Source of the DNA: Bacteroides ovatus
GTDB lineage: Bacteria > Bacteroidota > Bacteroidia > Bacteroidales > Bacteroidaceae
Assembly: GCF_001314995.1 (NCBI RefSeq)
Contig: NZ_CP012938.1
Location: 5,766,001-5,830,000, forward strand
DNA: 64,000 nucleotides
Direction of reading: 5' to 3'
Position 1 is the stretch's first letter. Each line of letters begins with the position of its first letter. The notes below the pieces were generated by a model that made no database searches, had not been told where the DNA came from, and worked only from the letters and a program-made list of their open reading frames with translations. Below are positions 44,165-64,000 of this stretch, piece by piece. The translations under genes and the position numbers were made by a program.

Positions 44165-44545
44165 ATGAATGAAAAAGAAGATTTAGAAGAACTCCAATGT
44201 TTTGTTTCAAATATACAGAATGATTGGAAAACAGCTTATGATGCACAAATTTATATCACATCTCTGTCTGTAATAAGTAATCATGATTGGAATAAATTAG
44301 AACTTTGGATAAATCTTCATCAGGATGGTTTTATCTATAAGTTAAGACATTATTATCCTGCACTTTCGGAAGACGATATACATATCATTCTTTTATTACG
44401 TATTGATTTTAATAATGCTCAAATTTCAGAGTTGTTTCATGTTTTAGAGAGTTCTTTTAGAATACGGCGTAGTAGATTGAAGAAAAAAATGAATGTTGCT
44501 TGTGAATCTATTACAGATTTTGTCAAATCATTGTATTTAGAATAA
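44165..44545 (+). CDS. Small protein with LuxR-like helix-turn-helix
   Basis: 126 residues, no signal peptide, 32 nt after the GH28 stop. The C-terminal half (YYPALSEDDIHIILLLRIDF, then ISELFHVLESSFRIRRSRLKKKM) matches the pattern of LuxR-like HTH domains at the end of Bacteroidetes regulators, in which LS..D..I/L......N..EI..LL......V..RR.RL.KK recurs. Here the sensor part normally in front is missing. The AT-rich codon use fits the following cassette rather than the GH28. It may be the regulator of the twin palindromes at 44565 and 53952, or a partner of a regulator elsewhere; both are inference. Confidence 0.6.
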   Translation: MNEKEDLEELQCFVSNIQNDWKTAYDAQIYITSLSVISNHDWNKLELWINLHQDGFIYKLRHYYPALSEDDIHIILLLRIDFNNAQISELFHVLESSFRIRRSRLKKKMNVACESITDFVKSLYLE

Positions 44546-44564
44546 TTCTCTTTTTTATAGTAAA

Positions 44565-44651
44565 ACCATATATAAATGTGTGTATAAGTAAATGTATACG
44601 CATTTGTATATGGTTAATATTTTTCTCTTAACTTAGAAATGTATTCTTTTG
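44565..44651 (+). promoter_or_regulatory. 50-bp palindromic operator and -7 box of the radical SAM operon
   Basis: ACCATATATAAATG (44565-44578) and CATTTGTATATGGT (44601-44614) are inverted with one mismatch, around an inner, weaker pair (TGTGTATA / TGTATACGCA). After 29 nt comes the octamer TTCTTTTG (44644-44651). The sequence down to the start codon is closely matched at 53952-54079, before the DUF4369-like gene. Confidence 0.75.
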
Positions 44652-44695
44652 CAACAAATTATCATTGAAAAACATTTTTCATTCATACTAATATT

Positions 44696-46036
44696 ATGGA
44701 AAAATACAGATTATCATCGTATGCAATATCGATAGAATTAGAAAGTGAACCTGACGATAGCCTATTAATACATGGCTATACCGGTGCTATAGATTTAATA
44801 GATAAGTCCATAGTAAGGTTTCTGATAGAAAATCCTTATTTTGATAGGGCTGTGCTACCTTGTGAAGAAAGTACAAAAGATACTCTTGAAAAAAGAGGAT
44901 ATATCACTTTACAAACAGAAGATGAAGAAAAAGAATACTTTAAACGTTTAGCAACAGCACTTTTTAGAAAAGAAAGTATGCTACGTAAAGGTTTTACTTT
45001 TCTAATTACCTATGATTGTAACTTTCGTTGTCCTTATTGCTTTGAAAAAGATATTCAGAAAGATGGAACAGCGTTCACCAAAGAGATGGTAGATAAAGCC
45101 TATCAAGCTATATTACAGATAGCACCAGACGAAAGACTACGCTCAAGGTCAATAACCTTGTATGGCGGTGAGCCTTTATTAAAGAGAAATAAGAATATTA
45201 TATCTTATATTATTGAACAGGGTAAAGAATTAGGATTTAAGTTTTCTGCTATCTCTAATGGTTATGACCTGAAATATTATGAAGATCTTCTCTCGCCGGA
45301 AGATATTAGCTTTATTCAGATAACGATAGACGGCATTAGAGAACGTCATAATCAACGTCGTATTCATTATCAAGGATACCCTACATTTGATACGATTGTA
45401 GAAAATATTGGAATTGCTTTGAATAAAGGAGTTGCTATTTCAGTTAGAGTGAATGCTGATCGAAACAATATAGAAGATTTAGAGGGATTACAAACGATTT
45501 TTTGTGATTTGGGCTATACAGAGAACCCTTTATTTTCTATAAACTCTGCATTATTAAGAAATTATTCCGATAGTACAGAAAAAGCCTATCAATACTTCTC
45601 ACAGAAAGATTTTATAGAATGGCATAAAAAACATGGCTTGGAATCTACTTGCCAAGATTATGGAGTATATCGTAGAATTCATGCAGCGATAAAACAAGGT
45701 AAACCTCTATCTTTTCGTTCTACTTTTTGTAGTGCTCAAACGGGTGGATTTGTGTTTGATCCATTTGGTAGAATTTATACATGCTGGGAGACTGTGAATC
45801 AAAAAGAACATTGTATAGGTAATTATTCTTTGAATAATGATATTGTTTGGAATGAGCAAGTCGAAGAACGTTGGAGAAAGACCTATCTTTTGGAGAATGC
45901 TATATGCGCAAGCTGTAAATACGCATTACTGTGTGGCGGTGGATGTCCGGCACAAAACTTACAGAAACATCGTTGTACGCATATGGAGGATATAGTTCAT
46001 AATGCTGCGAATAAGGCTTATTTAAGCATTAAATAA
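44696..46036 (+). CDS. Radical SAM/SPASM peptide maturase
   Basis: 446 residues. The radical SAM motif is C108-x3-C112-x2-C115 (in TYDCNFRCPYCFEKD), binding the 4Fe-4S cluster that cleaves S-adenosylmethionine; GGEP follows (SITLYGGEPLLK). The C-terminal SPASM domain has Cys at 345, 363, 373, 404, 407, 413, 417 and 427 for auxiliary clusters. Residues 20-90 (HGYTGAIDLIDKSIVRFL ... LEKRGYI) look like a winged-helix leader-recognition domain (RRE-like), by eye only. Such enzymes cross-link or epimerise residues of a small precursor, and the Cys-rich peptide 23 nt downstream is the obvious substrate; thioether formation is the best guess. This is the first gene of the cassette and is under the palindromic operator. 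Confidence 0.93.
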   Translation: MEKYRLSSYAISIELESEPDDSLLIHGYTGAIDLIDKSIVRFLIENPYFDRAVLPCEESTKDTLEKRGYITLQTEDEEKEYFKRLATALFRKESMLRKGFTFLITYDCNFRCPYCFEKDIQKDGTAFTKEMVDKAYQAILQIAPDERLRSRSITLYGGEPLLKRNKNIISYIIEQGKELGFKFSAISNGYDLKYYEDLLSPEDISFIQITIDGIRERHNQRRIHYQGYPTFDTIVENIGIALNKGVAISVRVNADRNNIEDLEGLQTIFCDLGYTENPLFSINSALLRNYSDSTEKAYQYFSQKDFIEWHKKHGLESTCQDYGVYRRIHAAIKQGKPLSFRSTFCSAQTGGFVFDPFGRIYTCWETVNQKEHCIGNYSLNNDIVWNEQVEERWRKTYLLENAICASCKYALLCGGGCPAQNLQKHRCTHMEDIVHNAANKAYLSIK

Positions 46037-46059
46037 AATATTAATTAAAATTTATTTTT

Positions 46060-46302
46060 ATGGAACAAAATGAGAAAAAAGAACTACGTTCTTTGAATGT
46101 AGAGTTGCCAACTCTTTATGTTGAAGAATTGGAACAGCGGTTAGAAACCGATCCGTTGGCTATCGGTGGATTACTATCTGGAGATTTTGATGGAGTTGAA
46201 GCATATTCTTGTGGTAAAGATTGCGATGAATTTACTTGTGACGTTCATTGCGATGACCATTGTTCAGAGCATTGTGGAAGATTTCATTGTTCGGTAGATT
46301 AG
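46060..46302 (+). CDS. Cys-rich precursor peptide of the radical SAM system
   Basis: 80 residues, two parts. Residues 1-50 form an acidic leader with a likely helix (ELPTLYVEELEQRLETDPL) and a Gly-Gly at 36-37 that could mark cleavage. Residues 51-80 hold seven Cys (51, 55, 60, 64, 68, 72, 77) spaced x3, x4, x3, x3, x3, x4, with His directly before Cys at 63, 67, 71 and 76. There is no signal peptide. This plan is like ranthipeptide or sactipeptide precursors, in which radical SAM enzymes make Cys thioethers, but I do not recognise the family. The His-Cys pairs could also bind metal. The start has a purine-poor but AT-rich leader, and no other ATG fits. A strong hairpin follows the stop. Confidence 0.85.
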   Translation: MEQNEKKELRSLNVELPTLYVEELEQRLETDPLAIGGLLSGDFDGVEAYSCGKDCDEFTCDVHCDDHCSEHCGRFHCSVD

Positions 46303-46344
46303 GTAATTCCGTAATGAATTAAAGCTAATTATTGAATCTATTTT

Positions 46345-46381
46345 CAGTATATTCTCTCAATTGATTTGAGAGAGTATACTG
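46345..46381 (+). terminator. Strong hairpin between precursor and TonB-dependent receptor
   Basis: CAGTATATTCTCTCAA (46345-46360) pairs with TTGAGAGAGTATACTG (46366-46381) over 16 bp with one G-U. A T-rich but interrupted tract follows. It could act as a partial terminator or a 3' stabiliser giving more precursor than downstream message. Confidence 0.65.
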
Positions 46382-46412
46382 ATATGTAACTTCTATTTTT
46401 ATTTTATATAGA

Positions 46413-48728
46413 ATGAAAAATAATGTATTTTTAGTTTGTATGTTACTCTTTTCTATATCTGTTTTTGGACAGGAACTGAAAATTCAGGGGCATCTGATAG
46501 ATGAAGAGAAACAAGACTTAGTGGCTGCAACTATACGCTGCTATCTGAATGACACGCTTTTTGTGGTAGGGGGAACTACGAATAGTAAAGGAGAATTTGA
46601 ACTCAAACTTCCACATACGGAACAAAAGTACAAGCTATTAATCAGTTATTTAGGTTATAAAGAAACTACTTTAGTATTGAATCCGACCAAAGAGACCCTG
46701 ATTCGTTTAGGAGAAATAACGATGGATAAGAAAGTGGTACAGATGCAGGAAGTAACTGTGCTAGCTCCCAATCGGATAAATACCGAAGACAAAATAATGG
46801 CATTCCCTACTCGCGAGCAGTTACGACACTCTTATGACGGATACAGTGCTTTGCGTGCGTTAATGATTCCGGGGCTGGAAGCTGACCCTCGAAGTGCAAC
46901 TATCACTTATCATAGAGAAAACGTATTATTGTGTATTGACGGACGTGAGGCAACACGGGAAGAAGTGCAGAATCTAAACCCAAAAGATATTAAACGTGTA
47001 GATTTTTATTCTCAAGGTCGTTCCGATTACCCGGAAGCTTCTACTATATTAGATTATATACTTAAAGAACGGGATTACTTAGGAACAATCGCTTTAAACG
47101 CAAGGCATCAATTGAACAAACCAACAGGCACTGGACGAGGAACTGCCCAGTATTTTGAAGGAAAATCTGAATGGGCTGTATCAGTATCGGACAATTATAC
47201 TCATTTTAGAAATCATGACGAAGGATATACCGAAACAATTTATCATTTTCCTGACGAAACCATCATCCGGACAGACGATGAATTGCCCTCATTAAACAAT
47301 AATAATAACCTGAAAGCTTATCTAAATTATATATATAAAGATAAGTTGCAAACATTTTACTCTTCTTTACGGATGAATAGGAGTATGTCTGAAAATGACA
47401 ACTGGAATCGGCAACGGTATAATAATACATCCGCTGTTCTCGTGAAACAAGAATACAAACATACTGTTAGGTTGAATCCGGCTTTACAATTACGCTATAA
47501 TCGTACTCTTCCCAAAAGGCAGATACTTCGATTGGAGTTGTATGGAAGTTATGGAAACAACGATTACAATCGATGGTATGAGCAGCGTACGGATGAAGTC
47601 ATAACGTCTTCTTATGCCAATGCTACTGCCGAAGGTAGTTGGTATGGAAGACTTAATTGTAACTATAGTAAAAGTTTCAAAAATAAATCATCTGTCAGTT
47701 TGACTCTAAATCAGAATTTTACGCATACTAACAACTTAAATACAAAAGAGGGGCAAAATTCAGAGATCTTTTTAAATAAAGGTAATACCAGTTTTTATGC
47801 TACATATAATTATCGCATTAAGAAGAAATTTAATCTACAAGCTAGCATTGCCGAACATTTATCATATACTACGACGAATGGAAATCATGTGTTCAGTTCT
47901 TTCTTCATACCTTCATTGAAACTCTCCTATCTTCATAAGGGACATTCGTTGAAGTTGACCGGAACTGTCCGTAGTACAGAAATAAGTCTTTCAAATCGTA
48001 CCGGTTACGAATATAAAAAAAATGAATACGAGATGTTTGTAGGAAATCCTAAATTAAAAGACTATTTGCAATATAATGCAGGATTAAATTATGATTGGAC
48101 TATGAATTCCAGGTGGACATTGCTTTCTTATGCTAGTTTGCACATAAGTAATCCGCAGAACTATGAACTATATCGTTATGATGACGAACGGAAAATGTTT
48201 GTATATCAAAATTTGAATGGAAGCAAAAGTTTGAGTCAGCACTATGAATTGGCTTTGCAATATGATATTATTCCCCAGATATTTAGTTTAAGGCCAGTGC
48301 TGATTTATGATCGCATGGATGTGTCCTTGTGGAAAGATTTTTCTTTTGATCGTTTTTTCTTTTGCTGTTCTCTTTTTTATATGCATAATGGTTGGAGCTT
48401 TGATGTAAACTATATGGCACCATCAAAGTATATGAAAATCACTTCCGGTCTTATGACTCATTTTCCTGGAATGCTGGGATTCGGAGCTGGTTACAGTATC
48501 AGCAACTGGAATATTGATTTATATATGCAAACGCCGTACAAGGCAGTTTCTAAGGGGCACCTTCAGCAAATTGGTTATGAAAGAAGATATGAAAACCGAA
48601 TACCTCGTGTTAGCGATCATGTAATTAGCTTATCAGTAAATTATCGTTTCACTTTTGGAAAGAAAAAACATAAATTCGATAACTCGGTTATACAAGATAC
48701 GAATCAGTCAACCATATCAAGCGATTAA
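46413..48728 (+). CDS. TonB-dependent-receptor-like outer-membrane barrel protein
   Basis: 771 residues with a signal peptide (ends at VFGQ). It has a carboxypeptidase-regulatory-like domain (KIQGHLIDEEKQDLVAATI), a plug-like part (QMQEVTVLAPNRINTEDKI, NVLLCIDGREA, IKRVDFYSQGRSDYPEAS), and a long beta-barrel (alternating aromatic strands) finishing with HVISLSVNYRFTFGKKK. It is shorter than SusC proteins and has no SusD neighbour, like the outer-membrane beta-barrel family used in Bacteroidetes for peptide or small-molecule transport. In this operon it probably moves the modified peptide or its metal complex across the outer membrane; direction is unknown. Confidence 0.88.
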   Translation: MKNNVFLVCMLLFSISVFGQELKIQGHLIDEEKQDLVAATIRCYLNDTLFVVGGTTNSKGEFELKLPHTEQKYKLLISYLGYKETTLVLNPTKETLIRLGEITMDKKVVQMQEVTVLAPNRINTEDKIMAFPTREQLRHSYDGYSALRALMIPGLEADPRSATITYHRENVLLCIDGREATREEVQNLNPKDIKRVDFYSQGRSDYPEASTILDYILKERDYLGTIALNARHQLNKPTGTGRGTAQYFEGKSEWAVSVSDNYTHFRNHDEGYTETIYHFPDETIIRTDDELPSLNNNNNLKAYLNYIYKDKLQTFYSSLRMNRSMSENDNWNRQRYNNTSAVLVKQEYKHTVRLNPALQLRYNRTLPKRQILRLELYGSYGNNDYNRWYEQRTDEVITSSYANATAEGSWYGRLNCNYSKSFKNKSSVSLTLNQNFTHTNNLNTKEGQNSEIFLNKGNTSFYATYNYRIKKKFNLQASIAEHLSYTTTNGNHVFSSFFIPSLKLSYLHKGHSLKLTGTVRSTEISLSNRTGYEYKKNEYEMFVGNPKLKDYLQYNAGLNYDWTMNSRWTLLSYASLHISNPQNYELYRYDDERKMFVYQNLNGSKSLSQHYELALQYDIIPQIFSLRPVLIYDRMDVSLWKDFSFDRFFFCCSLFYMHNGWSFDVNYMAPSKYMKITSGLMTHFPGMLGFGAGYSISNWNIDLYMQTPYKAVSKGHLQQIGYERRYENRIPRVSDHVISLSVNYRFTFGKKKHKFDNSVIQDTNQSTISSD

Positions 48729-48738
48729 AACGAAGCAA

Positions 48739-49932
48739 ATGAATTTACAAGAGATAGAAATCCGGCCATTTTCAACTTCTTCCCTTCATGAAACTTTTCT
48801 TATGGAGGTTTCGGGACGTTTCTTTGAAATAGGTAAAGATGTGGCTGAACTTCTGACCTACTTTAAATGTAACGGTTGTGAAGAAGCAAGTATTGAAGAA
48901 TATTCTAAACAAAATGGAAAGTTTTCGAAAGAGGAGATTTTGACGTTTTTAAATGATTTTGCTAAGAAGTTGGAAAAAGAGAGCGAACTTCCTAACAAAA
49001 GAAAGTCTTTTCTGTATAATAGAGAACTCATATCAGCGAATGTCATCAACAAATGTTCCTCGTTGTTAGCTCCTTTATTTAATAAATGGTTCATATTGTT
49101 CGTCATATTATTTTTTATAGCTTTGGATGTTCTCTACTTTATAGAATACAGTACAATAGGTAAAGAACACCTAAATTTGAATATTTATATTTTAAGCGGA
49201 TTACTATTCTTTTTTATTCTTTCTTCTCTTTTTCACGAGTTAGGACATGCTTCAGCTTGTCGCTATTTTGATATTTCTCATGGAGGGATCGGGCTTGGAT
49301 TGTACATTAATATACCAGTCTTTTATACAGATGTATCAAGCGTCTGGAAACTTCCAAGAAAAAAAAGATGTATTGTTAATGTTGGAGGAGTCTATTTCCA
49401 GATATTACTTTTAATTCCATTTTTGGTAATTTATTTATATTCTCAAAGTAGTTTATTGAGCTATATCATATTGATTATGAATTTCAATTTCCTACTCACA
49501 CTAAATCCATTCTTTAAATTCGATGGATATTGGATTATGACAGATGTTTTAGGTGTTGCCAATTTACGTCAAAAAGGAAAAGAATGGATGCTGTATATGA
49601 TAAACAAATTTAGGCATAAAAATACTAATAAAGTTCCTTACTTAATGTCACTCTCCAAAGGAACTAAAATAGCATTGGTTATCTATACAATAGTGGTAAA
49701 CTTCTTTTTCGGATTTTATTTCTTGTATATACTACCACTTTTTTTTATTAGATTCTATCATACTTTTCCTGAAAGAATTGAACTATTATTAATGAATCTG
49801 TCACATCATCAAATGCCTAATTGGGGGAATCTGCAACAATGTATTTTACAAATAGTGTTTTTGTATTTCTTTCTTTATATGCTGTATAGAATGTTGAGTC
49901 CGTTATTAAGAAAAATAATATGGAAAAAATAA
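48739..49932 (+). CDS. M50-type membrane metalloprotease with RRE-like N-terminus
   Basis: 397 residues from ATG 48739, 10 nt after the barrel gene's stop; an earlier in-frame ATG (48655) lies inside that gene. The first ~90 residues (VSGRFFEIGKDVAELLTYF ... FSKEEILTFLNDFAKKLE) resemble the PqqD/RRE fold that binds RiPP leaders (by eye). Several membrane helices follow. The zinc motif HELGH is at 166-170 and the second motif NPFFKFDG at 256-263, as in site-2 proteases and the M50-like proteins of RiPP clusters. It may cut the leader or export the peptide. Its last 13 nt overlap the next gene's start, so the two are translationally coupled. Confidence 0.87.
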   Translation: MNLQEIEIRPFSTSSLHETFLMEVSGRFFEIGKDVAELLTYFKCNGCEEASIEEYSKQNGKFSKEEILTFLNDFAKKLEKESELPNKRKSFLYNRELISANVINKCSSLLAPLFNKWFILFVILFFIALDVLYFIEYSTIGKEHLNLNIYILSGLLFFFILSSLFHELGHASACRYFDISHGGIGLGLYINIPVFYTDVSSVWKLPRKKRCIVNVGGVYFQILLLIPFLVIYLYSQSSLLSYIILIMNFNFLLTLNPFFKFDGYWIMTDVLGVANLRQKGKEWMLYMINKFRHKNTNKVPYLMSLSKGTKIALVIYTIVVNFFFGFYFLYILPLFFIRFYHTFPERIELLLMNLSHHQMPNWGNLQQCILQIVFLYFFLYMLYRMLSPLLRKIIWKK

Positions 49933-51929
49933 TAAATAAAATAGCTTGTTGTTTATTGGTTTTCATGTTTCTTATGCGTTTTTTCTACGTACAAGATCCA
50001 TACTTTATCTGTACTTTTCTTTTGGTTATTTGCCTTACTGTCTGTCTAACCAGGCAAATGATAAAACTGACTATCATTGATTTATGTTTGCTCCTTTTAT
50101 GGGCATATATAGGGATGGGACCTACTGTTAATTTCGCAGGGAGTGCGTATTCTTTTATTACACTCACATCAAATATCCTGTATTACTTTCTTTTGAGGTA
50201 TATTATCACATACGATAAGAAAGGAGAACAGTCATTGCTATCATCATTTACCGTTTGTATTGCTGTCTTATCCGCATTAGCCTTTTATTCTTTTTATCTT
50301 TTCTGTGTGTCAGTGCATGAAATGGGTTTTAGTTCTCTTTATGATTTCAGATTTTTATATAAACCATTGGGAGTACCCAATAATGAATGGAGTAGCCTTC
50401 AATGGTTGTTTGGCGGGATTATAACGGCTGTCTATATTTATAGTGAGAATAAAATAATAAAAGGTATAGCTTTACTATCAGGTGCAATAATCTTATGTTT
50501 GGCTTTAGTTTCATTCTCACGAGGTATTTATCTTGCCGGTATTGTTTTCATCATATTGTTAATTGTGCTGGAACATAGGAAATTATTCGAAAGGAAAAAG
50601 ATAATTATTGGTGGAGGCTATTGTTTGTTAGTAATAGTTGTTGCTTGCCTTTATTCAACAGAAATAAAAAAAACACTTCATGGAAATGAGACTGTATCCC
50701 AACAGCGTAGTACGAAAAGCCGAATAAATACCTTCCAATTAACAACGGATGTCTTGAAAGAATATCCTTTTGGAGTGGGACTCAATAATTACACATTGGC
50801 AAAGGACTATTATTTGCATGGAGAAAAAAGGGTTGACTCTTATACTTCATACGCTGCGAATTCATTTTTAAAGATAGGTATTGAAGGCGGATATGCCGGT
50901 CTGATATTTTATATATTATTTCTTTTATCCATAGTTTACTACTTAGTGAAGGCGAAGAAGCGTAATTTGTGGCTATTATTTCTTTTTCTGTTCGCCTTTT
51001 TTCTTCGGGAACAAACATTTTCTACATTCTTTGATTCCAGTAGTGTCCGATTATCAGCTTTGATATTAATCGCTTTCCTGCAAAAAGAAGAAATAGTAAT
51101 TGTGCAACGATCGAATATAAAGATTTTAGCTGCTATACCCTGTTTGGCATGGATATGTGTATTTTATATTTTTAGATTTAATTGTAACGTTAATCATGAT
51201 GTTGCAAGATTAGTTAATCAGTCTATGGCTTATCGAAAGGTTAATATACCAAAGGCGTTGACATGTATAAAGCAAGCCCAATTAAAAAATCCCTTAGATG
51301 TTCATCTGGCTTATTATGAATATTGCTGGTCAGAAAAAGAAAATGCAGTTCACAACGAAGATAAACTTAGAAAAATGACGGAACTCTATCCTGACAAATT
51401 ATTGTTCCGGTGGACACTATATGAGCAATATAAACAACAGCATCAGTTAGAGAACGCTGCAACTGAATTAAGATCTTGTATCTTACAAAATCCTCGAATT
51501 CTTGGGACTTCTTTTTGGAAAGAACTTAATGAACAAGAGCCTGGATTCGCAGAGCTGGTAGTAGGCGGATTATTAAAAGAAAAACAGGAAAAGCCTTTAA
51601 ATGTAATAGAATTAGCTAAGTGGGGAAGTATTGCTTTACAATTAGGAAAAAACGATTTAGCACTGTCCTATTTGAATGAAGTTAGCAAACAATTACCCAA
51701 CCTATCCCGGGTATGGTTTAATTTAGCTTCCATATTGGAGAAAGAGGGAAAATTAGAACAAGCTAGTCTGTACCGACAAAGAGGGAGTATAATGGAATTA
51801 GGTGTTTTTTCTAAAGACAGAAGTTATATGCCTCCCGTAGAGCAAGATATAAATAAAATAATCAATGAGCAATACTCTTTTTTATTTAATCTGTGGTATA
51901 ATGAAAATTTGAAGAATGAAATAGAATAA
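49920..51929 (+). CDS. O-antigen ligase-like (Wzy_C) membrane protein with TPRs
   Basis: 669 residues. The first ~420 form about ten or eleven membrane helices with the family signs VSFSRGIYLAG and KEYPFGVGLNNY in the periplasmic loop, as in O-antigen ligases and protein O-oligosaccharyltransferases. The last ~230 are soluble tetratricopeptide-like repeats (AYRKVNIPKALTCIKQAQ, LENAATELRSCILQNP, LALSYLNEVSKQLPNLSRVW). It overlaps the protease gene by 13 nt. Members of the family transfer lipid-linked glycan to lipid A or to protein. Its place in a peptide cassette suggests a glycan is attached to the peptide or to a carrier protein; this is inference. Confidence 0.85.
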   Translation: MEKIINKIACCLLVFMFLMRFFYVQDPYFICTFLLVICLTVCLTRQMIKLTIIDLCLLLLWAYIGMGPTVNFAGSAYSFITLTSNILYYFLLRYIITYDKKGEQSLLSSFTVCIAVLSALAFYSFYLFCVSVHEMGFSSLYDFRFLYKPLGVPNNEWSSLQWLFGGIITAVYIYSENKIIKGIALLSGAIILCLALVSFSRGIYLAGIVFIILLIVLEHRKLFERKKIIIGGGYCLLVIVVACLYSTEIKKTLHGNETVSQQRSTKSRINTFQLTTDVLKEYPFGVGLNNYTLAKDYYLHGEKRVDSYTSYAANSFLKIGIEGGYAGLIFYILFLLSIVYYLVKAKKRNLWLLFLFLFAFFLREQTFSTFFDSSSVRLSALILIAFLQKEEIVIVQRSNIKILAAIPCLAWICVFYIFRFNCNVNHDVARLVNQSMAYRKVNIPKALTCIKQAQLKNPLDVHLAYYEYCWSEKENAVHNEDKLRKMTELYPDKLLFRWTLYEQYKQQHQLENAATELRSCILQNPRILGTSFWKELNEQEPGFAELVVGGLLKEKQEKPLNVIELAKWGSIALQLGKNDLALSYLNEVSKQLPNLSRVWFNLASILEKEGKLEQASLYRQRGSIMELGVFSKDRSYMPPVEQDINKIINEQYSFLFNLWYNENLKNEIE

Positions 51930-51933
51930 AGAT

Positions 51934-53862
51934 ATGAAAGCGTTGATGAAAATAAGTTTTTTGCTTCTCGGTGTTACTGTTATTTGCTGGGGAGTATATT
52001 TCTACTCTGGAAATAGGATTATCACACGGAAAGTTTTAGCACATTATCAAAATGATTCATTGAAATTAGCGGCAGCAACATTCTTGTTGGATAATATAGG
52101 TGACAAATTTGCTTATTGTAAAGAGGATATTGAACGTTATGACACGATTTTTGCACTTTATGATGAATTAAATAAAAAAGGAGAAACCTCATCAGAACCA
52201 GAACTGGCAAAAAAATGTTGGCATACCTTAATTCAGACTTATGGGAAAATGAAACCTTCACTATTTGAACGTGAATATGATAGGAAAACTTTATCTGCAT
52301 CTTTTTTAATAGATAATATTGATGTGGCTTTTGAAGCATGGCAAACAGCCCCTAATTTTATCACGCGTGATTTTAATCTATTCTGCAGATACGTATTGCC
52401 TTATCGGGTTGGCAATGAGCCAATAGAGCCGGAGCGAAGAAAACAATTCGAGGAATTGCGTTCTCTAAGAGATTCTATGTTTGACGAAAGTCGGATTATA
52501 AAAGATCTATATCACGAATTTGTCAAAGTACGTAAATACCAAAATAGTAAGCAAATGTGGAATTATGCGATATCTTTAACTAAATCTCAATTAGAAAAAA
52601 CTCGTAGAGGATCATGTCGTCATTTTTGTGAGTATTATGTGGCAGCTTTACGTGCTTGTGGCATTCCTGCAACAATAGATTATGTTAATTGTTGGGGGAA
52701 CAGAGCTGGTGGACATGAATGGGTGGCAGTTCTAAAGGATAGTGGAGCATTTCTTGCTTTTGACGCATTAGATCGAAAGAAAATGAAATTGGCTTATAAA
52801 CCAGCAAAAATTTATCGGCAAACTTTTGAAACACAGGTTATTGATGGGAATGCGAGAAAATATGTTCCTGACTATATGCTAAATCCAAATCGCATGGATG
52901 TCTCACATCTTTATTTTAATACCTATGATGTGGAGATAAAGGGCAGTGATATGAAACAATATAAGAACTATCCTTATGGAGTTATTTGTGTGTTTGATAA
53001 TAAGAAATGGGTACCTGTTGATTTTGGTAAGGTGACTGATGGGGTATTTCATTTTCAAAATATGATAGGCGATGTATGTTATATGGCTGGTTTTTATGTT
53101 AATGGAACTTTTATTTCGGCTACAGAGCCGTTTGTTCTAACCAAAAGTGGTGAAGTAAAATTGATTCAATGTTACACAAAAAATCATGTAGATATGCGGT
53201 TGGTTCGTAAATACCCGAAATTCACACGCATTTCTTCTTTTAGGAAAGGACTATTGGGCTCTAAAATAGAAGTATCAGATGATAGAGAATTCTCTTCAGG
53301 CAGGACCTTGATAACAATTGATGAATTAGGGAATGAAGATATTTTTGATTCAACCGTAACAGTGAATAGACCATACAGGTATGTGCGATTCGTTTTTGAT
53401 GAACAGAAAGAAGGTAATTTGGCTGAAATAGAATTTTATGGGAAGAAGAGAGGGACAAATGTTGAAGTTCTATTGACAGGTGGATTTAGCGGAGAACCAA
53501 TAAAGCAAACTAAAACAAATTGGACGATGGCTTTGGATCGGAGTTTCGATACTTATTTTAAGAAGAATAAGGGAGAAAAAGGTAATATTTGTTTAGATTT
53601 AGGAAAGGATAATTCATATGAGATAACGCGCGTAAGATATGTTCCTCAAACAGATTCTAACTTTATAGTTCCGGGAAATCAATATCGTTTGGAATATTGG
53701 GACAATTCTTCTTGGAAATTTTTTGGAGAACAGATTGCTACCGATTTCAGTTTAAATTTTTCAAATGTACCTACTGGTCGATTATATATTTTACATAATC
53801 TAACCAATGGTGTAGAGGAGAGAATTTTTACTTATGAAGATGGTAAACAAGTGTGGTGGTAA
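51934..53862 (+). CDS. Membrane-anchored transglutaminase-domain protein
   Basis: 642 residues with one N-terminal membrane helix (ISFLLLGVTVICWGVYFYSG), so mostly periplasmic. The transglutaminase-like core has Cys228 in RGSCRHFCEYYVAALRACGIP, His261 in AGGHEWVAV and Asp277 in LAFDAL: the full catalytic triad in the usual order. The C-terminal ~250 residues have two discoidin-like segments (RYVRFVFDEQKEGNLAEIEFYG; RVRYVPQTDSN). Bacteroidetes relatives are cysteine peptidases or amide-forming enzymes; it may process or attach the peptide. It begins 4 nt after the previous stop and ends the cassette. Confidence 0.87.
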   Translation: MKALMKISFLLLGVTVICWGVYFYSGNRIITRKVLAHYQNDSLKLAAATFLLDNIGDKFAYCKEDIERYDTIFALYDELNKKGETSSEPELAKKCWHTLIQTYGKMKPSLFEREYDRKTLSASFLIDNIDVAFEAWQTAPNFITRDFNLFCRYVLPYRVGNEPIEPERRKQFEELRSLRDSMFDESRIIKDLYHEFVKVRKYQNSKQMWNYAISLTKSQLEKTRRGSCRHFCEYYVAALRACGIPATIDYVNCWGNRAGGHEWVAVLKDSGAFLAFDALDRKKMKLAYKPAKIYRQTFETQVIDGNARKYVPDYMLNPNRMDVSHLYFNTYDVEIKGSDMKQYKNYPYGVICVFDNKKWVPVDFGKVTDGVFHFQNMIGDVCYMAGFYVNGTFISATEPFVLTKSGEVKLIQCYTKNHVDMRLVRKYPKFTRISSFRKGLLGSKIEVSDDREFSSGRTLITIDELGNEDIFDSTVTVNRPYRYVRFVFDEQKEGNLAEIEFYGKKRGTNVEVLLTGGFSGEPIKQTKTNWTMALDRSFDTYFKKNKGEKGNICLDLGKDNSYEITRVRYVPQTDSNFIVPGNQYRLEYWDNSSWKFFGEQIATDFSLNFSNVPTGRLYILHNLTNGVEERIFTYEDGKQVWW

Positions 53863-53898
53863 GCTTTATCTGTTATTAAAAATGAATGTTATTTATGA

Positions 53899-53925
53899 AA
53901 CGATTATTGACTTTATTAAATCGTT
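53899..53925 (+). terminator. Weak hairpin after the cassette
   Basis: AACGATT pairs with AATCGTT (7 bp) around a T-rich loop; the following tract is poor in T. It lies between the transglutaminase stop and the second palindromic operator. Confidence 0.35.
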
Positions 53926-53951
53926 GCGTTTAAAATGATCTTTCTTTAAAA

Positions 53952-54039
53952 ACCGTATACAAAGTGTGTATATTTACCAATGTATACACATTTGTATACG
54001 GTTAATGTTTTTATATTAATCTATTAATGGTTTTCTTTG
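53952..54039 (+). promoter_or_regulatory. Second palindromic operator and -7 box, before the DUF4369-like gene
   Basis: ACCGTATACAAA (53952-53963) and TTTGTATACGGT (53991-54002) are a perfect inverted repeat; the inner part GTGTGTATA / TGTATACAC also pairs partly. After 29 nt comes TTTCTTTG (54032-54039). The ~130 nt up to the start codon match 44565-44696 base by base over long stretches, including the final CTAATATTATG. Confidence 0.8.
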
Positions 54040-54078
54040 TTACAACGTGAATGATAAACTTTTATTTGGACTAATATT

Positions 54079-54872
54079 ATGATAAAACATCTATTCTTTT
54101 TTATTTTCGTATCTATGCTACATCTATCTTATGGACAAAAAAGATACACAATCAGAGGTGAATTTCCTGATCATTCTTTGGATAATGAATATGTATTGCT
54201 ATATGATTTCTCATCTCTTCAAGGTGAATATGAACGTTCAAAGCAAGCATTCATTGACAGTATATTGGTGGTCGATAAAGTGTTTCATTATGAAGGAACG
54301 ATCAATCAAGAACCTTTTTTAGCATTAGTTCTTTGTAGTAAAAGCAGATATCTTAAATATAGCACAACTTTTATAGTAGAACCTGGCAATATTCAGATGC
54401 GCGTTGTTGACTGGGCAAGTGATGGTGATGTGTCAGGTACTTCTATAAACGACGATTACAACAAATATATTATTGAACGGGGGAAACAATTGGTAAGACG
54501 CGTTCTTTAAGAACTAAACGAGAAGATACAATAAAAAGTGATACTCTAAAAGATAATAAATGTATATCTTTAAGTGAGGTATACACATATGCCGAGGAAG
54601 GGAAATTTATTTTCTTAGAGAAATATGCTATGTATCCAAATGTTGTACGATATTGGTTATCTTTCTATTTGAATGGGCGAAGAGCGTCAAAGAGTCCTGT
54701 TTTCTCCAAATGCCTGCATATTCTCAATTTAATGCCCAAAGCGGATCGGGACATCCTTTTGGCTTGGCGGGACTATACTATTAAAAAGGAGGAGTATAGA
54801 GAAAAGACTAAATCTCTGTTGGATAGTATACATAATAATGCCCCTCGTTTCATTGAGGCTATTTCAAAATAG
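54079..54872 (+). pseudogene. DUF4369-like secreted protein, frameshifted at a G tract
   Basis: The first frame gives 143 codons with a signal peptide (LHLSYGQ) and an N-terminal DUF4369 domain (KRYTIRGEFPDHSLDNEYVLLYDF), then stops at 54508. The remaining coding sequence continues in another frame from the run GGGGG at 54479-54483 (frame 0 reads ETIGKTRSLRTKRED, then to SISK-like end at 54872). One more G in this run would give a single 264-residue protein. The usual C-terminal thioredoxin domain of such proteins is missing; the tail is helical (LLAWRDYTIKKEEYREKTKSL). So it is a frameshift mutant, a sequencing error, or a slipping (phase-variable) tract. It shares the operator of the radical SAM operon. 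Confidence 0.7.
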
Positions 54873-55058: not shown

Positions 55059-55404
55059 TCACCTTTTCTCTGTCTCTTCGATGAATAAGGAGTTTGCGGG
55101 TGAAGGGTAACAACTTCACCACCTCTTCACCTGTGGCGATTAGTTTCAAAAATAGTTTCAAGGCTTGAAACTATTCGTTTCTCGGTGTGAAACACTTCGT
55201 TTCAAAGCATGAAACACTTTGTTTCTCGGCGTGAAACTTTTAGTTTCAAATAGGGTTGAAACTAATTACGAAATAGCTTTACTAATCTTGTTCAATGGTT
55301 AAATCAGGAAGCAGCTATTTGATTTGATTCACGATGAAGAGAAGGTGAAAGACCGACTATTCACCTGCAAACTCCTTATTTATCGAAGAAACAGAGAAAA
55401 GTGA
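55059..55404. repeat. Structured element with long inverted arms
   Basis: The left arm (55059-55105, with CTCTTCGATGAATAAGGAG) is inverted in the right arm (55359-55404, with CTCCTTATTTATCGAAG), at about 42 of 46 positions; similarity continues inward for another ~30 bp, including a mirrored hairpin (GGTGAAG ... CTTCACC on the left, GGTGA ... TCACC on the right). The interior contains the palindrome ladder. No ORF of any size is present. It may be a non-autonomous mobile or REP-like element; no target duplication was found. Confidence 0.65.
55155..55262. repeat. Five GTTTC-N-GAAAC palindromes at 22-bp period
   Basis: Units start at 55155, 55177, 55199, 55221 and 55243, each GTTTC, seven variable bases, GAAAC, then five bases. 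The fifth unit has ten bases in its centre. The seven-base centres alternate between AAGGCTT, TCGGTGT, AAAGCAT and TCGGCGT. A lone GTTTC lies at 55143. The exact spacing suggests selection or recent tandem growth. Confidence 0.85.
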
Positions 55405-55611: not shown

Positions 55612-58143
55612 ATGGAACACATAACTAAAATAAAAACAGTTTTCGCTATTTTACTATTATATATCATAATAGTTCCACCATTATATGCCCAATCTATAAG
55701 TGTCCGTTCATTACCTGGCTATGTAAAAGCGATAAATCAATTCAACCAACTGAACCCTCAAGAAAAGGTGTATCTTCATTTTGACAATACCGGATATTAT
55801 TTGGGTGATACTATTTGGTTTAAGGCTTATGTGGTATTTGCCGAGCAACTTCGTCCTACAACTTTAAGCAAAGTGTTACATGTAGAGCTGTTGACTCCAC
55901 AAGGCATGGTAGTGGATGACCGCCAATTGAAGCTTGAAAATGGTGAATGTCATGGTGAATTTGCCTTGAGTTCCCGTTATCATAGTGGTTTCTATGAAGT
56001 TCGTGCTTACACTCGAAGTATGTTGAATTTTGGTGACGATTGTATTTTTTCTCGTGTATTTCCTGTTTATGATTCTCCGGAAATAGAAGGGCATTATACT
56101 GATCGGAAGATGGATAGTGGTTTTGGCTTGAAAGACGAACGTAAAAAAAACACAAAAGCTAAGAAAGTCAACCTTTCCTTTTATCCTGAAGGAGGAAATG
56201 CTGTGGTTGGGTTACGTTCGAGAATCGGTTTCAAAGCTACAGGAGAGAATGGAGAAGATTTGAATATAACAGGTGCGGTATATGATTCTTCCGGTGAACT
56301 GGTTTCATATTTCTCCACTTATCACCAAGGTATGGGATTTTTTGAAATGATTCCTGATAAGACTACATATAAAATTGTAGCCGATTATGATGGAAAGAAA
56401 TATGACTTTGCTTTTTCAAACATTATTTCTTCAGGATATGTGATGCGTGTGACAGATTTGGATGCAGAGACTTATCAGGTACATCTGCAAAAATCTCCGG
56501 ACTTGCCGGCTGATACTTTAGCCGTTTCTGTATCATGTCGTGGTACAGTTTATTCAGCAGAAGCTTTAATTTTGGGTGATAAACCTTATATTTATCAATT
56601 GGATAAAGGAAAACTTCCTGCCGGTTGCCTTCAATTTACTCTTTATAATCAGGATGGCAAAATTTTGGCAGACCGTTTGGCTTTTAATCGTGCTCCGTTA
56701 GAATATTGCCGTGTTACGGTGGAGGCGGATAAACCTTTCTATAAACCTTTAGAAAAGGTGAGACTATCACTTGCTGTGAAAGATTTGTCCGGTAATCCTG
56801 TATCAGGCAGTTTTTCATTGTCTGTGCGTGATGCCGGCACAGAAATTCATACTGGTTATCATGAGAATATCCTGACAGACTTGTTGCTCTCTTCTGAAAT
56901 ACGAGGTTACATCGCTCATCCGATGCAATATTTCGGGACGGACGACCGTAGTAATCGTATGAAGTTGGACTTGTTGATGATGGTACAGGGGTGGCGCCGT
57001 TACAATTGGCAGGTGATGGCGGGGGTATCTCCTTTTCATGTGGCACATTATGCTGAAGAGGGTTTACCAGTGAGTGGTGTAGTGAAATCTTTACTCAAGA
57101 ATAAGGTGGAAGCGAATGTGGATGTTGTATTTTGGATTGTTAAGGATAGTGCTTCTTTCCATGGTCATTGCAAAACTGACAAAAAAGGGCGTTTCCATTT
57201 CCTGTTGCCGGATCATGCGGCAGTAGACGGTGAATGGCAGCTGGCTCTTTCTGTGACTTCGAAAGGCAAACCGAAACATTGCAGGATTATGCTCGACCGC
57301 CTTTTTAGTCCGGAAGCCCGCAGTTATTCTATTTCGGACTTTCAGGTGAAGGATACGGTTATTGTTTTTGCAGACACTTCAGATAGTCTGGCCAATAGTA
57401 ATGTTTTAGGTATGATACAGAATCTTCCCCAAGTGGTGATAAAGAAAAAACAGATAAAGAATGAGATATTTCCGGATCTGGTTTGTGATGTGGAAAAGGA
57501 TATTAGTAGGCTAATGGATCAAGGGAAGGATTATCCAGGAACATTGGGGGAATATATGGAAAGAAATATTTCTGCCGTAAACATGGTAGATACTGCGTAT
57601 ACGTATGCTAATAGTGCTATTTGTTATATTTTAGATGGTGGAGGTTCTGTTAATCCGCGAAAGGGCATCGGTGCTTCCGATCATCCGATAGAGAATATAA
57701 AAACAATAGAAGTGTATGATGGAAATCTTCGGGCTTGGATAGTGAGAAACATAGATAGTAATTATGGCTATTATCCTCCGAGTGATCCGACATCAGATTT
57801 TTATAGTATGAGACATTTACATGATGCTGTTTTTCAGGCTAACCAAAGGCTGGTATTATTCATCGTCCGTTTATATAACGATGTGTTGCATGACAAGTAT
57901 AAGAAGGGAATGCGTTATACTTTTTTCAAAGCCTTTTCTCCTGTAAGAGAATTCTATCAGGTAAATCATAGTAATAGTGTTCCGGGAGATATCGATTTTC
58001 GTCGAACTTTGTATTGGAATCCTGATGTGAGGACTGATAATAATGGAAAAGTGAACGTTAGTTTTTATAATAATGCTACTTGTCGACAAATGACGATCAA
58101 TGCAGAGGGGATAAATCGTGGGAAGTGTATTATTAAAGAATAA
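55612..58143 (+). CDS. MG2/plug-type periplasmic or outer-membrane protein
   Basis: 843 residues with a signal peptide (ends at LYAQ). The N-terminal part has the macroglobulin-like MG2 pattern of Bacteroidetes proteins (EKVYLHFDNTGYYLGDTIWFKAY, SGFYEVRAYTR, FYPEGGNAVVGLRSRIGFKA). The middle has further Ig-like domains (YRVTV... KPLEKVRLSLAVKD; VQGWRRYNW). The C-terminal part resembles a TonB plug-like fold (AICYILDGGG, IKTIEVYDG) and ends with a macroglobulin-like NGKVNVSFYNNATCRQMTI. Its function is unknown; relatives are thought to act at the outer membrane. It has its own consensus promoter, and its last 26 nt overlap an upstream in-frame ATG of HTCS-2. It could belong to either the peptide cassette or the HTCS-2 unit. 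Confidence 0.75.
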   Translation: MEHITKIKTVFAILLLYIIIVPPLYAQSISVRSLPGYVKAINQFNQLNPQEKVYLHFDNTGYYLGDTIWFKAYVVFAEQLRPTTLSKVLHVELLTPQGMVVDDRQLKLENGECHGEFALSSRYHSGFYEVRAYTRSMLNFGDDCIFSRVFPVYDSPEIEGHYTDRKMDSGFGLKDERKKNTKAKKVNLSFYPEGGNAVVGLRSRIGFKATGENGEDLNITGAVYDSSGELVSYFSTYHQGMGFFEMIPDKTTYKIVADYDGKKYDFAFSNIISSGYVMRVTDLDAETYQVHLQKSPDLPADTLAVSVSCRGTVYSAEALILGDKPYIYQLDKGKLPAGCLQFTLYNQDGKILADRLAFNRAPLEYCRVTVEADKPFYKPLEKVRLSLAVKDLSGNPVSGSFSLSVRDAGTEIHTGYHENILTDLLLSSEIRGYIAHPMQYFGTDDRSNRMKLDLLMMVQGWRRYNWQVMAGVSPFHVAHYAEEGLPVSGVVKSLLKNKVEANVDVVFWIVKDSASFHGHCKTDKKGRFHFLLPDHAAVDGEWQLALSVTSKGKPKHCRIMLDRLFSPEARSYSISDFQVKDTVIVFADTSDSLANSNVLGMIQNLPQVVIKKKQIKNEIFPDLVCDVEKDISRLMDQGKDYPGTLGEYMERNISAVNMVDTAYTYANSAICYILDGGGSVNPRKGIGASDHPIENIKTIEVYDGNLRAWIVRNIDSNYGYYPPSDPTSDFYSMRHLHDAVFQANQRLVLFIVRLYNDVLHDKYKKGMRYTFFKAFSPVREFYQVNHSNSVPGDIDFRRTLYWNPDVRTDNNGKVNVSFYNNATCRQMTINAEGINRGKCIIKE

Positions 58144-58203
58144 ATTTATATGGAGATTTTACTTTTTCATAGTGTTACATTCTATGTTGCAGTGCAAAAG
58201 ATG

Positions 58204-58211
58204 TATCTTTG
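58204..58211 (+). promoter_or_regulatory. Possible -7 box of HTCS-2
   Basis: TATCTTTG lies 33 nt upstream of the chosen start at 58244. No good -33 box is visible, so the gene may also be read from the MG2 promoter. Confidence 0.4.
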
Positions 58212-58243
58212 TAACCAGCAATCAAAATAACCCCAACCACTAT

Positions 58244-61200
58244 ATGAAATATAAATTATTATGCCTTTTCGTTTTGTTTAGTTTTTCTATATCGGATTTG
58301 TATGCTGATATTGAACTTAGTTCCAAACAAATGAGAACCAGTGATGGGCTACCTAGTAATTCTGTACGATGCATGTTTCAGGACAGTAAAGGGTTCTTAT
58401 GGTTGGGTACTTTAGACGGATTGACCCGTTATGATGGAAATACTTTTCTTACTTATCAGTTGGAAAGCGGGAAACACGATCGGATTTCTTTAGCAGATAA
58501 CAGAATAAAACATGTGGCAGAGGATAAGAATGGTTTTTTGTGGATAAAGACTGTGCCGGAATTATTCAGCTGTTATGATCTACAGAAAGCTTGTTTTGTA
58601 GATTTTACCGGTACCGGAAGTGATGGAGAGAACTATTCAGAAATATTTATGTCCGCTAATGGAGATGTGTGGCTTTGGCATAGAAGGAATGGTGTACGTC
58701 AAATTGTTTGTGAGGACGATCGGACTATGACCTCTGTGAAGTTTAGAACGAAATTTGGAAACCTGCCCGATGACCGGATTAAATTTATAAATGAAGATTC
58801 TAGTGGCAGGATCTGGATTGGTACCATGCAGGGACTTGCGTTTGTTTATAAAGGGAAAGTTGAATTTATCGATAGGAAATTGAATTTTTCTTCTTCTTTC
58901 CCTCATGGAGAGGATATGTATTTTCTGACAAAGAGTGGAGATGTGTATCGCTGTGTAAATGGATCGAAAAAAATAGACTGTTTAACGTCGCTGTCTGCTA
59001 TTGCCGGTAATACATCTGTCAGTACACATTCATTGATAAAAGATAAATGGGTTATATTTACTTCTAGCGAAGGGGTATATGAATTTGATTTTCAGAATTT
59101 TCAAATAACTCCTTGCCGGGAATTGAAAATAAATAATGGAAAAGTTATTCATGACAATTATGGAGATTGTTGGGCTTACAATAACACTGGACGAATTTAT
59201 TATATAAACTCGAAGAGCGGAGAAATAAAGAATTTTCAACTGATCCCTGAAGAGAAGATGAAATATATAGATTATGAACGCTATCATGTGGTGCGTGATG
59301 ACCGGGGGATTGTGTGGATTTCAACTTATGGAAACGGACTTTTCACCTACGATATTCAGGAGGACCGGTTGGAACACTTTGTTTCGGAAGGAAAGAATGC
59401 GGGACCTATAGGGTCAGATTTCTTGTTATGTTTGATGAAAGACAGGACAGGAGGAATATGGGTAAGCTCCGAATATTCCGGTTTGTCTCATATTTCCATT
59501 TCAAATAAAGGTATTACACATGTCTATCCAGAATCACCGGATGTTTTTGACCGTTCGAATACAATCCGGTTACTAACTAAAATGTCGAATGGAGATATAT
59601 GGGTAGGAACGCGAAGAGGTGGATTGTATAATTATGATTCTCATCTGAAAACTAAGATAGATAATCATTATTTGCCCTATAATATTTATGCGATTTCAGA
59701 AGATAGTCAGGAGAATATATGGATAGGAACCCGGGGAGACGGACTAAAAATAGGAGATACGTGGTATAAAACGGATCCGTCTAATCCTTTTGCCTTATCT
59801 CATTCTAATATTTATTCCATTCTTCGCGATAAGAAAGATCGTATGTGGGTGGGAACATTTGGAGGAGGACTGGATCTGGCAGAATCAACGGAAAAAGGAC
59901 AATATAAGTTCCGTCGTTTTTTTCAAGGAAAGAAGTATGGCTTACGGATAGTCAGAGTAATGGCAGAAGATGAGAAAGGGATGATATGGATGGGCACAAG
60001 TGAAGGTATCTGCATTTTCCACCCTGACTCATTGATTGCTAATGAAGATAACTATCATTTGTTCAGCTACACCGATGGCAATTTTTGCAGCAATGAGATT
60101 CGTTGCCTGTTTCGTGATAGCAAAGGGCGCATGTGGGTAGGAACTTCGGGTGCCGGGCTGAATCTATGCGAACTGTCAGACGACTGTCAGTCTTTGAAAT
60201 ATACACATTATGGAATAGCGGAAGGACTGGTTAATAATATGGTGCAATCTATTTTAGAAGATCATTCGGGACAATTATGGATTGCTACGGAATATGGAAT
60301 TTCAAGGTTCAATCCCAACAGCCATTCTTTCGAGAATTATTTCTTCTCATCTTATACATTAGGAAATGTGTATAGCGAGAACAGTGCGTGTATGGGTGCA
60401 GACGGTAAACTGATTTTTGGAACAAACTACGGATTGACGATTATTGACCCGAAGAAGATTCCAACAGAGAGATTGCTTTCTCCTATTGTTATCACAGGAT
60501 TGTCCGTTAATGGAATTCAGGTGAAGCCTAATATGCCGGGTTCTCCTTTGCAAGAATCTTTAGCCTATTCGGATAAGATTACATTGAAATATTTCCAGAA
60601 TTCTTTTATGCTTGATTTTTCTACTCTCGATTATTCGGATAATGGTCAAATCAAGTATATGTATTGGCTGGAAAACTATGACAAGGGATGGAATGTTCCG
60701 TCTTCTTTAAGTTTTGCCACTTATAAATATCTGGAGCCGGGGAGTTACATTTTCCATGTGAAATATTGTGATGGTGCCGGTATTTGGAATGATACTGAAA
60801 CAACCTTGAAGATTGTTATCGTGCCTCCGTTTTGGAAAACGAATTGGGCTATGCTCGGATATTTCATCCTGATATTAATAGCTTTGTACTTTACATATCG
60901 TATCATTTTTAATTTCAATAGGTTGCGCAACCGCATCAATGTTGAAAAACAACTGACAGAGTATAAACTGGTATTTTTCACAAATATCTCTCATGAATTC
61001 CGTACTCCGCTTACATTGATCCAAGGAGCATTGGAGAAAATGTACCGGATGGATGATATTCCACAAGCCTTATTGCATCCGTTGAAAGTCATGGATAAAA
61101 GTACACAACGTATGTTGAGGCTGATTAATCAGTTGCTGGAGTTCAGAAAAATGCAGAACAACAAGTTGGCTCTTTCTCTGCAGGAAACTGATGTAGTTGC

Positions 61201-62530: not shown

Positions 62531-62541
62531 TATATACTTAC

Positions 62542-62578: not shown

Positions 62579-62595
62579 ATAAGTATGTTTATCAG

Positions 62596-63735: not shown

Positions 63736-63802
63736 TTTATAATAAATTAGATTACTATTGTTCTTAGATTTAGGCACACAAAGGTGAGCCTTTCTTTACC
63801 TG

Positions 63803-63976: not shown

Positions 63977-64000
63977 TAGAAGAGTAAGGGGAGACGAATA

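Follow-up and report, generated by a model that had tools for sequence, protein, structure and literature searches.

In this study, which was based on a stretch of 64,000 nucleotides (nt) from Bacteroides ovatus (contig NZ_CP012938.1, positions 5,766,001 to 5,830,000; referred to as the window) and on related loci in other Bacteroidota, we found that a cassette of six genes in a pectin locus is probably a radical S-adenosylmethionine (SAM) system for a ribosomally synthesised and post-translationally modified peptide (RiPP), with the mature peptide being the specific cargo or ligand of the outer-membrane barrel that is encoded beside it. Together, the gene products would make, process and transport a modified peptide. 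The strongest clue, which was invisible to the initial annotation of the window, is the joint exchange of the peptide core and the barrel between two genomes. The genome of the window is designated G000, other genomes carry G numbers and annotated loci carry L numbers. The list of open reading frames (ORFs) confirmed the initial annotation in the positions and orientation of the six genes, which are all on the + strand, and in the gaps of 10, -13 and 4 nt that separate the barrel, M50, Wzy and transglutaminase genes; the gap from the peptide to the barrel gene is 110 nt. The start of the M50 gene is an ATG that was chosen by us, as the mechanical ORF list begins at a TTG inside the barrel gene. 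Four Pfam domains, Radical_SAM, CarbopepD_reg_2, Wzy_C and Transglut_core, scored above their cut-offs. The features of the cassette are as follows:

44696-46036, + strand: predicted radical SAM/SPASM peptide maturase, 446 amino acids (aa), from Pfam Radical_SAM and NCBIfam SPASM (TIGR04085)
46060-46302, + strand: putative precursor peptide, 80 aa with 7 Cys, from a 22-row alignment and 25 homologues
46344-46382, + strand: predicted RNA hairpin between the peptide and barrel genes, from the fold z-score
46413-48728, + strand: TonB-dependent-transporter-like outer-membrane barrel with an N-terminal CarbopepD_reg domain, 771 aa, predicted from AlphaFold and Foldseek
48739-49932, + strand: M50-like membrane metalloprotease, 397 aa, from the HExxH and NPFFKFDG motifs and NCBIfam relatives
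49920-51929, + strand: Wzy_C membrane protein with C-terminal TPRs, 669 aa, from Pfam Wzy_C
51934-53862, + strand: transglutaminase-fold protein, 642 aa, from Pfam Transglut_core
46201-48740, + strand: segment apparently exchanged relative to G175 (peptide core, hairpin and barrel), from mismatch counts and from synonymous (dS) and nonsynonymous (dN) divergence

Between the window and the sister species G175, whose cassette occupies the same position as that of G000, there were 3 mismatches over 2,001 nt up to position 46200, 361 over 2,540 nt in 46201-48740 and 53 over 5,122 nt after this segment. The first difference after position 45900 was at 46214, which is 34 nt into the core; the leader of the peptide carried no changes and the core carried 16.5 nonsynonymous and 2.5 synonymous changes. 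In the barrel gene, dS was 0.40 and dN was 0.081 (dN/dS 0.20 overall), and the high dS indicates an allele that was swapped in rather than selection that acted site by site. Judged from these alignments, the core and the barrel were exchanged as one module between G000 and G175, and because the variable core is exchanged together with the barrel, the two would constitute a dedicated peptide-channel pair. The L017/L018 pair pointed in the same direction, with an identity of 30% for the core and 64% for the barrel as compared with 77% for the radical SAM enzyme, 80% for the leader, 85% for the M50 protein and 87% for the Wzy protein; in L019/L020, a conserved core (93%) was found with a conserved barrel (98%). 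Of the 111 barrel residues that differ between the window and G175, 61 lie within residues 540-735, which was broadly the most variable part of the mature protein over 63 barrels, with some variable stretches elsewhere; this variation is given as residue ranges, and the extracellular and periplasmic halves derived from strand lengths were not used. An explanation that needs no peptide-barrel interaction is that the joint divergence reflects the ordinary diversification of an outer-membrane protein with a chance breakpoint in the peptide gene. It would agree with the dN/dS of the barrel, which reveals no excess of amino acid changes, with the first 11 residues of the core as delimited here, which are unchanged, and with the fact that outer-membrane proteins commonly recombine. 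We consider this explanation improbable: the leader is wholly identical up to a first difference that falls only within the core, the L017/L018 pair agrees and the operon adjacency of the genes is conserved.

The precursor was divided by us into a leader of about residues 1-40 (ELEQRLETDPLAIGGLLS) and a core of about residues 41-80, which contains the seven Cys. In an alignment of 22 precursors, comprising eight from the loci and 14 of the 25 homologue hits (the remaining 11 were near-identical, truncated or apparently frameshifted), all 13 of the invariant positions were located in the leader, including E23-L24-E25, R27 and E29-T30-D31-P32-L33, and the conserved leader motif reads ELEQRLETDP. 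The cores, on the other hand, vary in length, Cys number and Cys spacing, with 2 to 7 Cys in those of 11 loci. No curated NCBIfam model scored above its cut-off for the peptide of the window or for 10 other precursors tested. An encoded precursor with a conserved leader and a variable, Cys-bearing core, together with an adjacent gene for a SPASM-type modifying enzyme, is what characterises a RiPP locus, and the initial annotation had already read the small Cys-rich ORF in this way. The intergenic region downstream of the peptide gene (46303-46412) folds with a z-score of -5.0, and the corresponding gap folds with a z-score of -3.9 or lower in eight of the 11 loci scanned, including L066 with its 468-nt repeat-rich gap. 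It is possible that the hairpin acts as an attenuator or stabiliser; no known RNA family reached its gathering threshold within the window. Two tandem precursor genes precede the M50 gene in L067, while L034 and L035 encode short peptides with ELEDRLE or ELEERLE and, by eye, barrel- or CarbopepD-like proteins, and they are possibly further branches of the leader class.

The radical SAM protein matched the SPASM model TIGR04085 with 56.6 bits (cut-off 27), its CxxxCxxC motif and the cysteines of the SPASM region were invariant in all eight aligned sequences, and its best match among solved structures was 5wgg, which we take to be CteB; a SPASM enzyme with its cluster cysteines is also what is expected of a ranthipeptide or sactipeptide maturase. 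For the M50 protein, the Pfam Peptidase_M50 score (14.4 bits) was below the cut-off of 27.2, and the nearest NCBIfam model was the daptide HExxH protease (E 2e-23, 83.1 bits, cut-off 300), with the YydH/LiaK model at E 7e-15 (55.3 bits, cut-off 225); HExxH and NPFFKFDG were invariant in all eight aligned relatives, and a PDB sequence search with the M50 profile returned nothing at E<=0.01. The Wzy_C domain, which is the O-antigen-ligase domain, scored 56.3 bits against a Pfam cut-off of 31.7, and the PDB matches listed for this protein were TPR matches. The catalytic His of O-antigen ligases lies in the motif H[NSQ]X9GXX[GTY]. The seven Wzy-like rows, which were compared with this motif by eye in an alignment that includes no true ligase, all have A, S or P immediately before the conserved Asn; because the motif His appears to be missing in all seven, ligase activity should not be assumed. 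The transglutaminase-fold protein scored 31.2 bits for Transglut_core (cut-off 23), and Cys18, Cys228 and His261 were invariant in seven of seven sequences, with no invariant Asp soon after Cys228 or His261 that would complete the Cys-His-Asp triad of a transglutaminase; Cys18, by eye, suggests that it is possibly a lipoprotein. Its structure model was poor (pLDDT 68.3), and the fold search, with TM-scores of about 0.1, was uninformative.

Relatives of the radical SAM enzyme were present in 13 of 158 genomes of the genus (E<=1e-30) and in two of 151 in the family sample (E<=1e-40). Matches to the M50 profile were found in 10 of 158 genus genomes (E<=1e-20), 15 of 399 in the family (E<=1e-25), four of 393 in the order (E<=1e-30), six of 395 in the phylum (E<=1e-60), six of 61 in genus g13 (E<=1e-60) and one of five in the family of G554; the samples overlap, and all but the g13 and G554-family samples include the genome of the window. 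That genome, a single contig of 6.47 Mb, contains one match to the radical SAM protein and one to the Wzy/TPR profile. All eight of the genus genomes with an M50 match at E<=1e-180 have an adjoining radical SAM gene, which is split in G190. We annotated 20 Bacteroidales loci in 19 genomes (the window, L016-L022, L025, L033, L059-L067 and L105), all of which score at least about 370 bits with the M50 profile; since the loci were found via the radical SAM or the M50 gene, the counts are biased towards both. Six distant M50 loci (L034, L035, L045, L046, L068 and L069, with M50 scores of 11-151 bits) fall outside of this count, and a scan of the genome contigs yielded one distant locus. The barrel gene was directly upstream of the M50 gene in 18 of the 20 loci (in L062 as a fragment at the contig start), and the Wzy/TPR gene was directly downstream of it in 19 (the exception being L021, and with a split gene in L033). 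A transglutaminase match of some kind was found in 16 loci (broken up in L022, present as a fragment of 55 aa in L060, on the opposite strand in L065), as was a radical SAM match (split in L022 and L033, partial in L066, in pieces beside an N run in L060), and a leader peptide was detected in 14; L061 and L062 begin at a contig edge. Among the 17 loci that were found only via M50 (E<=1e-60), 12 have a radical SAM match in the locus, three more are at a contig edge (L061, L062 and L115) and two have none (L059 and L063). Where a leader peptide was detected, the radical SAM gene lay directly upstream in 18 of 19 loci, and the genes recur together away from pectin genes, which bears out the earlier proposal that the six form one unit. 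In other Bacteroidota groups, a smaller trio, namely the radical SAM and M50 genes and a peptide whose leader is of the ELExRLE type, occurs in L112, L113, L114 and L116, while L117 has the radical SAM and M50 genes with no peptide detected and L115, at a contig start, has the peptide and M50 genes with no radical SAM gene detected; in L114, L116 and L117, other ORFs lie between the radical SAM and M50 genes. The six loci that were examined from other Bacteroidota gave no Wzy or transglutaminase match. Because the trio occurs there without these genes, it looks like the core of the system, with the envelope genes as its Bacteroidales form.

Some loci lie at or beyond the limits of this group. 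Five with weaker radical SAM relatives (L023, L024, L026, L027 and L028) were not counted as members because there was no M50-profile match or leader peptide within 20 kb, and a possible relic of a radical SAM start in L059 (19 aa, E 0.48) was too weak to use. In L017-L021, L023 and L025, the radical SAM gene is preceded by a gene for a small secreted-looking protein of 110-136 aa, the L025 version of which had no Pfam match above the cut-off; no such gene was noticed in the window. L023 (flipped 8923-12051) is a different radical SAM locus with the secreted small protein, a radical SAM enzyme (35% identical), an ORF that by eye is nucleotidyltransferase-like and a Cys-rich peptide of 109 aa that lacks the ELExRLE leader. 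L066 has two tandem barrels after the peptide, a shortened radical SAM ORF and a 468-nt gap that folds as a very long hairpin; it lies near a distant (30%) hybrid two-component regulator and is perhaps a second carbohydrate-locus setting.

The predicted fold of the barrel protein, a plug within a large barrel, resembles that of a TonB-dependent transporter. Its AlphaFold model had a pLDDT of 87.4, the best Foldseek matches were Cir, PirA, ChuA, BtuB and FpvA (probability 1.00, TM-scores 0.4-0.6), and OprC was among the first 50 matches; E113, V114 and V116, which precede the plug and are at least 90% conserved in barrel alignment A4, resemble a TonB box by eye. Three accounts of this protein are versions of the same cargo-or-ligand reading that differ in the role of the barrel. 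As a bacteriocin, the peptide would kill relatives by binding the barrel variant that they carry, and the neighbouring barrel would be the resistant allele of the producer, replaced together with the peptide. Gut Bacteroides toxins are known in which a resistant receptor allele lies beside the toxin gene, and the joint exchange of core and barrel, the clustering of barrel variation towards the C-terminal part and the tandem barrels of L066 all suit this account. We nevertheless regard it as rather unlikely, as in 18 of 20 loci the barrel gene belongs to the operon and immediately precedes the protease gene, a closer association than one would expect of a simple receptor swap. A metallophore or signal, in which the released Cys-bearing peptide binds metal or signals and is retaken by its own TonB-dependent receptor as in siderophore-receptor pairs, would be consistent with the transporter-like predicted fold, with the TonB-box-like residues and, again, with the exchange of the core together with its receptor. 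The variable Cys count and spacing are unlike a fixed metal site, though, and no metal regulator or metal transporter was noticed within the cassette, which leaves this account doubtful as well. Finally, the barrel could be the outer-membrane exit channel of the peptide. Both of the barrel-free loci, L033 and L067, have genes for an ATPase, two MacB-type permeases and TolC- and HlyD-type proteins right after Wzy (assigned by Pfam in L067 and by reading the translations in L033), and genome G734 holds both forms, L065 with the barrel and L067 with the exporter. Characterised TonB-dependent transporters import their substrates, which speaks against an exit channel, and there are only two barrel-free loci, in which the exporter genes could serve another step. 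One paper on Bacteroidetes graspetide loci predicts, in favour of this account, that the TonB-related proteins there export (PMC8939145). On balance, an exit channel also seems more unlikely than likely to a clear degree.

Several observations weigh against the reading of the cassette as a RiPP system with a dedicated barrel. The curated maturase models stayed below their cut-offs, the best reaching 144.7 of 525 bits among the 25 listed of 66 matching NCBIfam families, and the M50 protein is likewise below the NCBIfam cut-offs of known peptide proteases. Pfam finds no plug domain in the barrel, whose TM-scores to solved transporters are only 0.4-0.6. In five of the 13 genus genomes that encode a radical SAM relative (E<=1e-30), the surrounding 20 kb gave neither an M50-profile nor a leader-peptide match, and L059 and L063 have the barrel, M50, Wzy and transglutaminase genes with no radical SAM gene or peptide detected. 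Moreover, the distant pairs are mixed (between the window and L025, the barrel is 47% but the Wzy protein only 36% identical), and clean exchange is known from one species pair, G000/G175.

In the mechanism that we propose for the RiPP system, with a step order taken from the families involved, the radical SAM/SPASM enzyme would modify the Cys-rich core, probably by thioether links, guided by the conserved leader, after which the M50 protease would remove the leader at the inner membrane and free the core to the periplasm. The transglutaminase-fold and Wzy_C/TPR proteins may then act on the peptide or pass it on in the envelope, and the mature peptide would be the specific cargo or ligand of the TonB-dependent-type barrel, be it in export, re-uptake or self-protection. 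The gene set, its recurrence, the conserved leader, the variable cores, the predicted fold of the barrel and the joint exchange in one species pair are observed, and the contact of core and barrel, the modification, the cleavage, the leader recognition and the periplasmic steps are inferred. The initial annotation had assigned export to the M50 protein or to genes elsewhere, which is incomplete in that it omitted the barrel; its observation that an ABC exporter and HlyD protein are missing holds for the six genes, but the MacB-type exporters of L033 and L067 occur where there is no barrel. A further and more tentative idea, which we hold to be somewhat less probable than its opposite, is that every core and its own barrel are passed on together as an exchangeable lock-and-key module that is served by a shared, unchanged maturation line (radical SAM enzyme, M50 protease, Wzy/TPR and transglutaminase), the barrel being a means of strain-specific self-recognition.

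Each of the known systems resembles the cassette in part. The epipeptides (EpeX/EpeP; YydF-type of Bacillus) combine a small precursor, an M50 intramembrane protease and a radical SAM enzyme. The cassette shares these three components and differs in the YydH/LiaK score (55.3 of 225 bits), in having no ABC exporter, in its Cys-rich core and in the added Gram-negative envelope genes. With daptides, it shares the HExxH protease as the closest NCBIfam model (83.1 bits, E 2e-23), although the cut-off of 300 bits was not reached and none of the other daptide enzymes was seen. The SPASM architecture is like that of the SCIFF and ranthipeptide maturases (CteB, PapB), with 119.3 bits for the PapB model; unlike them, the enzyme is below the cut-offs of PapB (340) and TIGR04463 (525), and the precursor matches no curated model above its cut-off. 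In pyoverdine/FpvA and methanobactin/MbnT, a variable secreted peptide is matched to its own TonB-dependent receptor; pyoverdine is non-ribosomal and methanobactin is made by other enzymes. EpeP of the epipeptide system is thought to cleave and export the epipeptide (PMC10885120). Some Bacteroidetes graspetide loci have a SPASM enzyme, fast-evolving precursors and TonB-related barrel and TPR proteins (PMC8939145); the six genes of the cassette, by contrast, include no ATP-grasp gene, and the main text of that paper does not mention M50, transglutaminase, O-antigen or Wzy. The Bacteroidales clusters with PCAT transporters that were analysed in PMC10352776 are radical SAM RiPP clusters of the same order, whose GG leaders are paired with peptidase-containing ABC exporters, unlike the cassette; its main text contains none of the terms M50, TonB, transglutaminase, O-antigen, metalloprotease and Wzy. 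These three papers are the nearest literature found (PMC10352776, PMC8939145 and PMC10885120). A search of titles and abstract starts, with subscription journals mostly outside its scope, found no description of the six-gene set and no paper on NVEALA.

The cassette looks inserted at the pectin locus, for which the following flanking features are relevant:

44165-44545, + strand: HTH-like protein of 126 aa that closes the pectin operon, a boundary marker with weak GerE and BT3442-family C-terminal matches below the cut-off
44485-44704, + strand: left degenerate direct repeat, which covers the 126-aa gene at its 3' end and the region that precedes the radical SAM gene; D1 and D4 are ungapped cores
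53878-54087, + strand: right degenerate direct repeat that brackets the cassette, from alignment to the left repeat

The two repeats are 73% identical over 222 columns. GH28 and the 126-aa gene flank the cassette on its left, and to its right follow, in this order, a DUF4369 gene, an MG2-domain gene, a hybrid two-component regulator (58118) and a GH88 gene. It is therefore fair to place the cassette inside a pectin locus; the start of the block, put in the 44565 region by the initial annotation, needs the small correction that it begins after the 126-aa gene. This gene was rejected as a cassette member because it also follows GH28 in G165, G296 and G238, which have no cassette there. In these three genomes, GH28 is 96-100% identical, the 126-aa gene is kept and different genes come thereafter. 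These are transposase-like ORFs and apparent restriction-modification genes in G165 and a transposase-like ORF with unrelated genes in G238 (both read from translations), while in G296 they comprise genes whose translations read as DUF4369-like, a DUF1573 gene identified by Pfam, a 577-aa ORF that matches Wzy/TPR weakly and a transglutaminase (498 bits for the transglutaminase profile). A sequence that by eye resembles the radical SAM start, with an early stop, is retained in G296 (twice) and in G165. The GC content of the cassette (44546-53877) is 0.335 as compared with 0.427 for 22001-44132 and 0.391 for 58118-64000, so that the block is indeed AT-richer than the genes before it (33.5% vs. 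42.7% GC). Among 25 loci of 8-20 kb each, GH28, DUF4450 and the preceding gene were found only in L016, and only G175 has the cassette next to pectin genes. Between G000 and G175, dS was 0.00-0.04 for the radical SAM, leader, M50, Wzy and transglutaminase sequences and 0.14 for GH28 and 0.07 for the DUF4450 gene in the left flank; because of the lower dS in the non-barrel genes, the sharing of the cassette seems to be more recent than that of its left flank. Zero differences were present in the 126-aa gene, which is outside of the cassette, and the recently shared stretch would therefore be slightly longer than the cassette. The horizontal acquisition that had been suggested is supported by the low GC content, by the other genes found at the site in three relatives and by a dS lower than that of the flank. 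The interval that runs from the GH28/126-aa genes to the regulator at 58118 resembles a hot spot in which gene content varies by genome (window, L100, L101 and L102). Within it, the DUF4369 gene of the window (54079-54872) is in two pieces (143 and 80 aa) as against one 264-aa ORF in G175 and looks frameshifted, and an inverted repeat with 67-nt arms that are 81% complementary and 205 nt apart (55063-55401) lies near the right end of the island.

If the reading of core and barrel as partners is correct, the cassette would be a ribosomal counterpart, in a major group of gut Gram-negative bacteria, of the variable siderophore-receptor or bacteriocin-receptor pairs. The leader motif would make the system, whose main form is without an ABC exporter, easy to find. 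It would also permit a direct test of whether a TonB-transporter-like barrel serves a self-made peptide, and in which direction.

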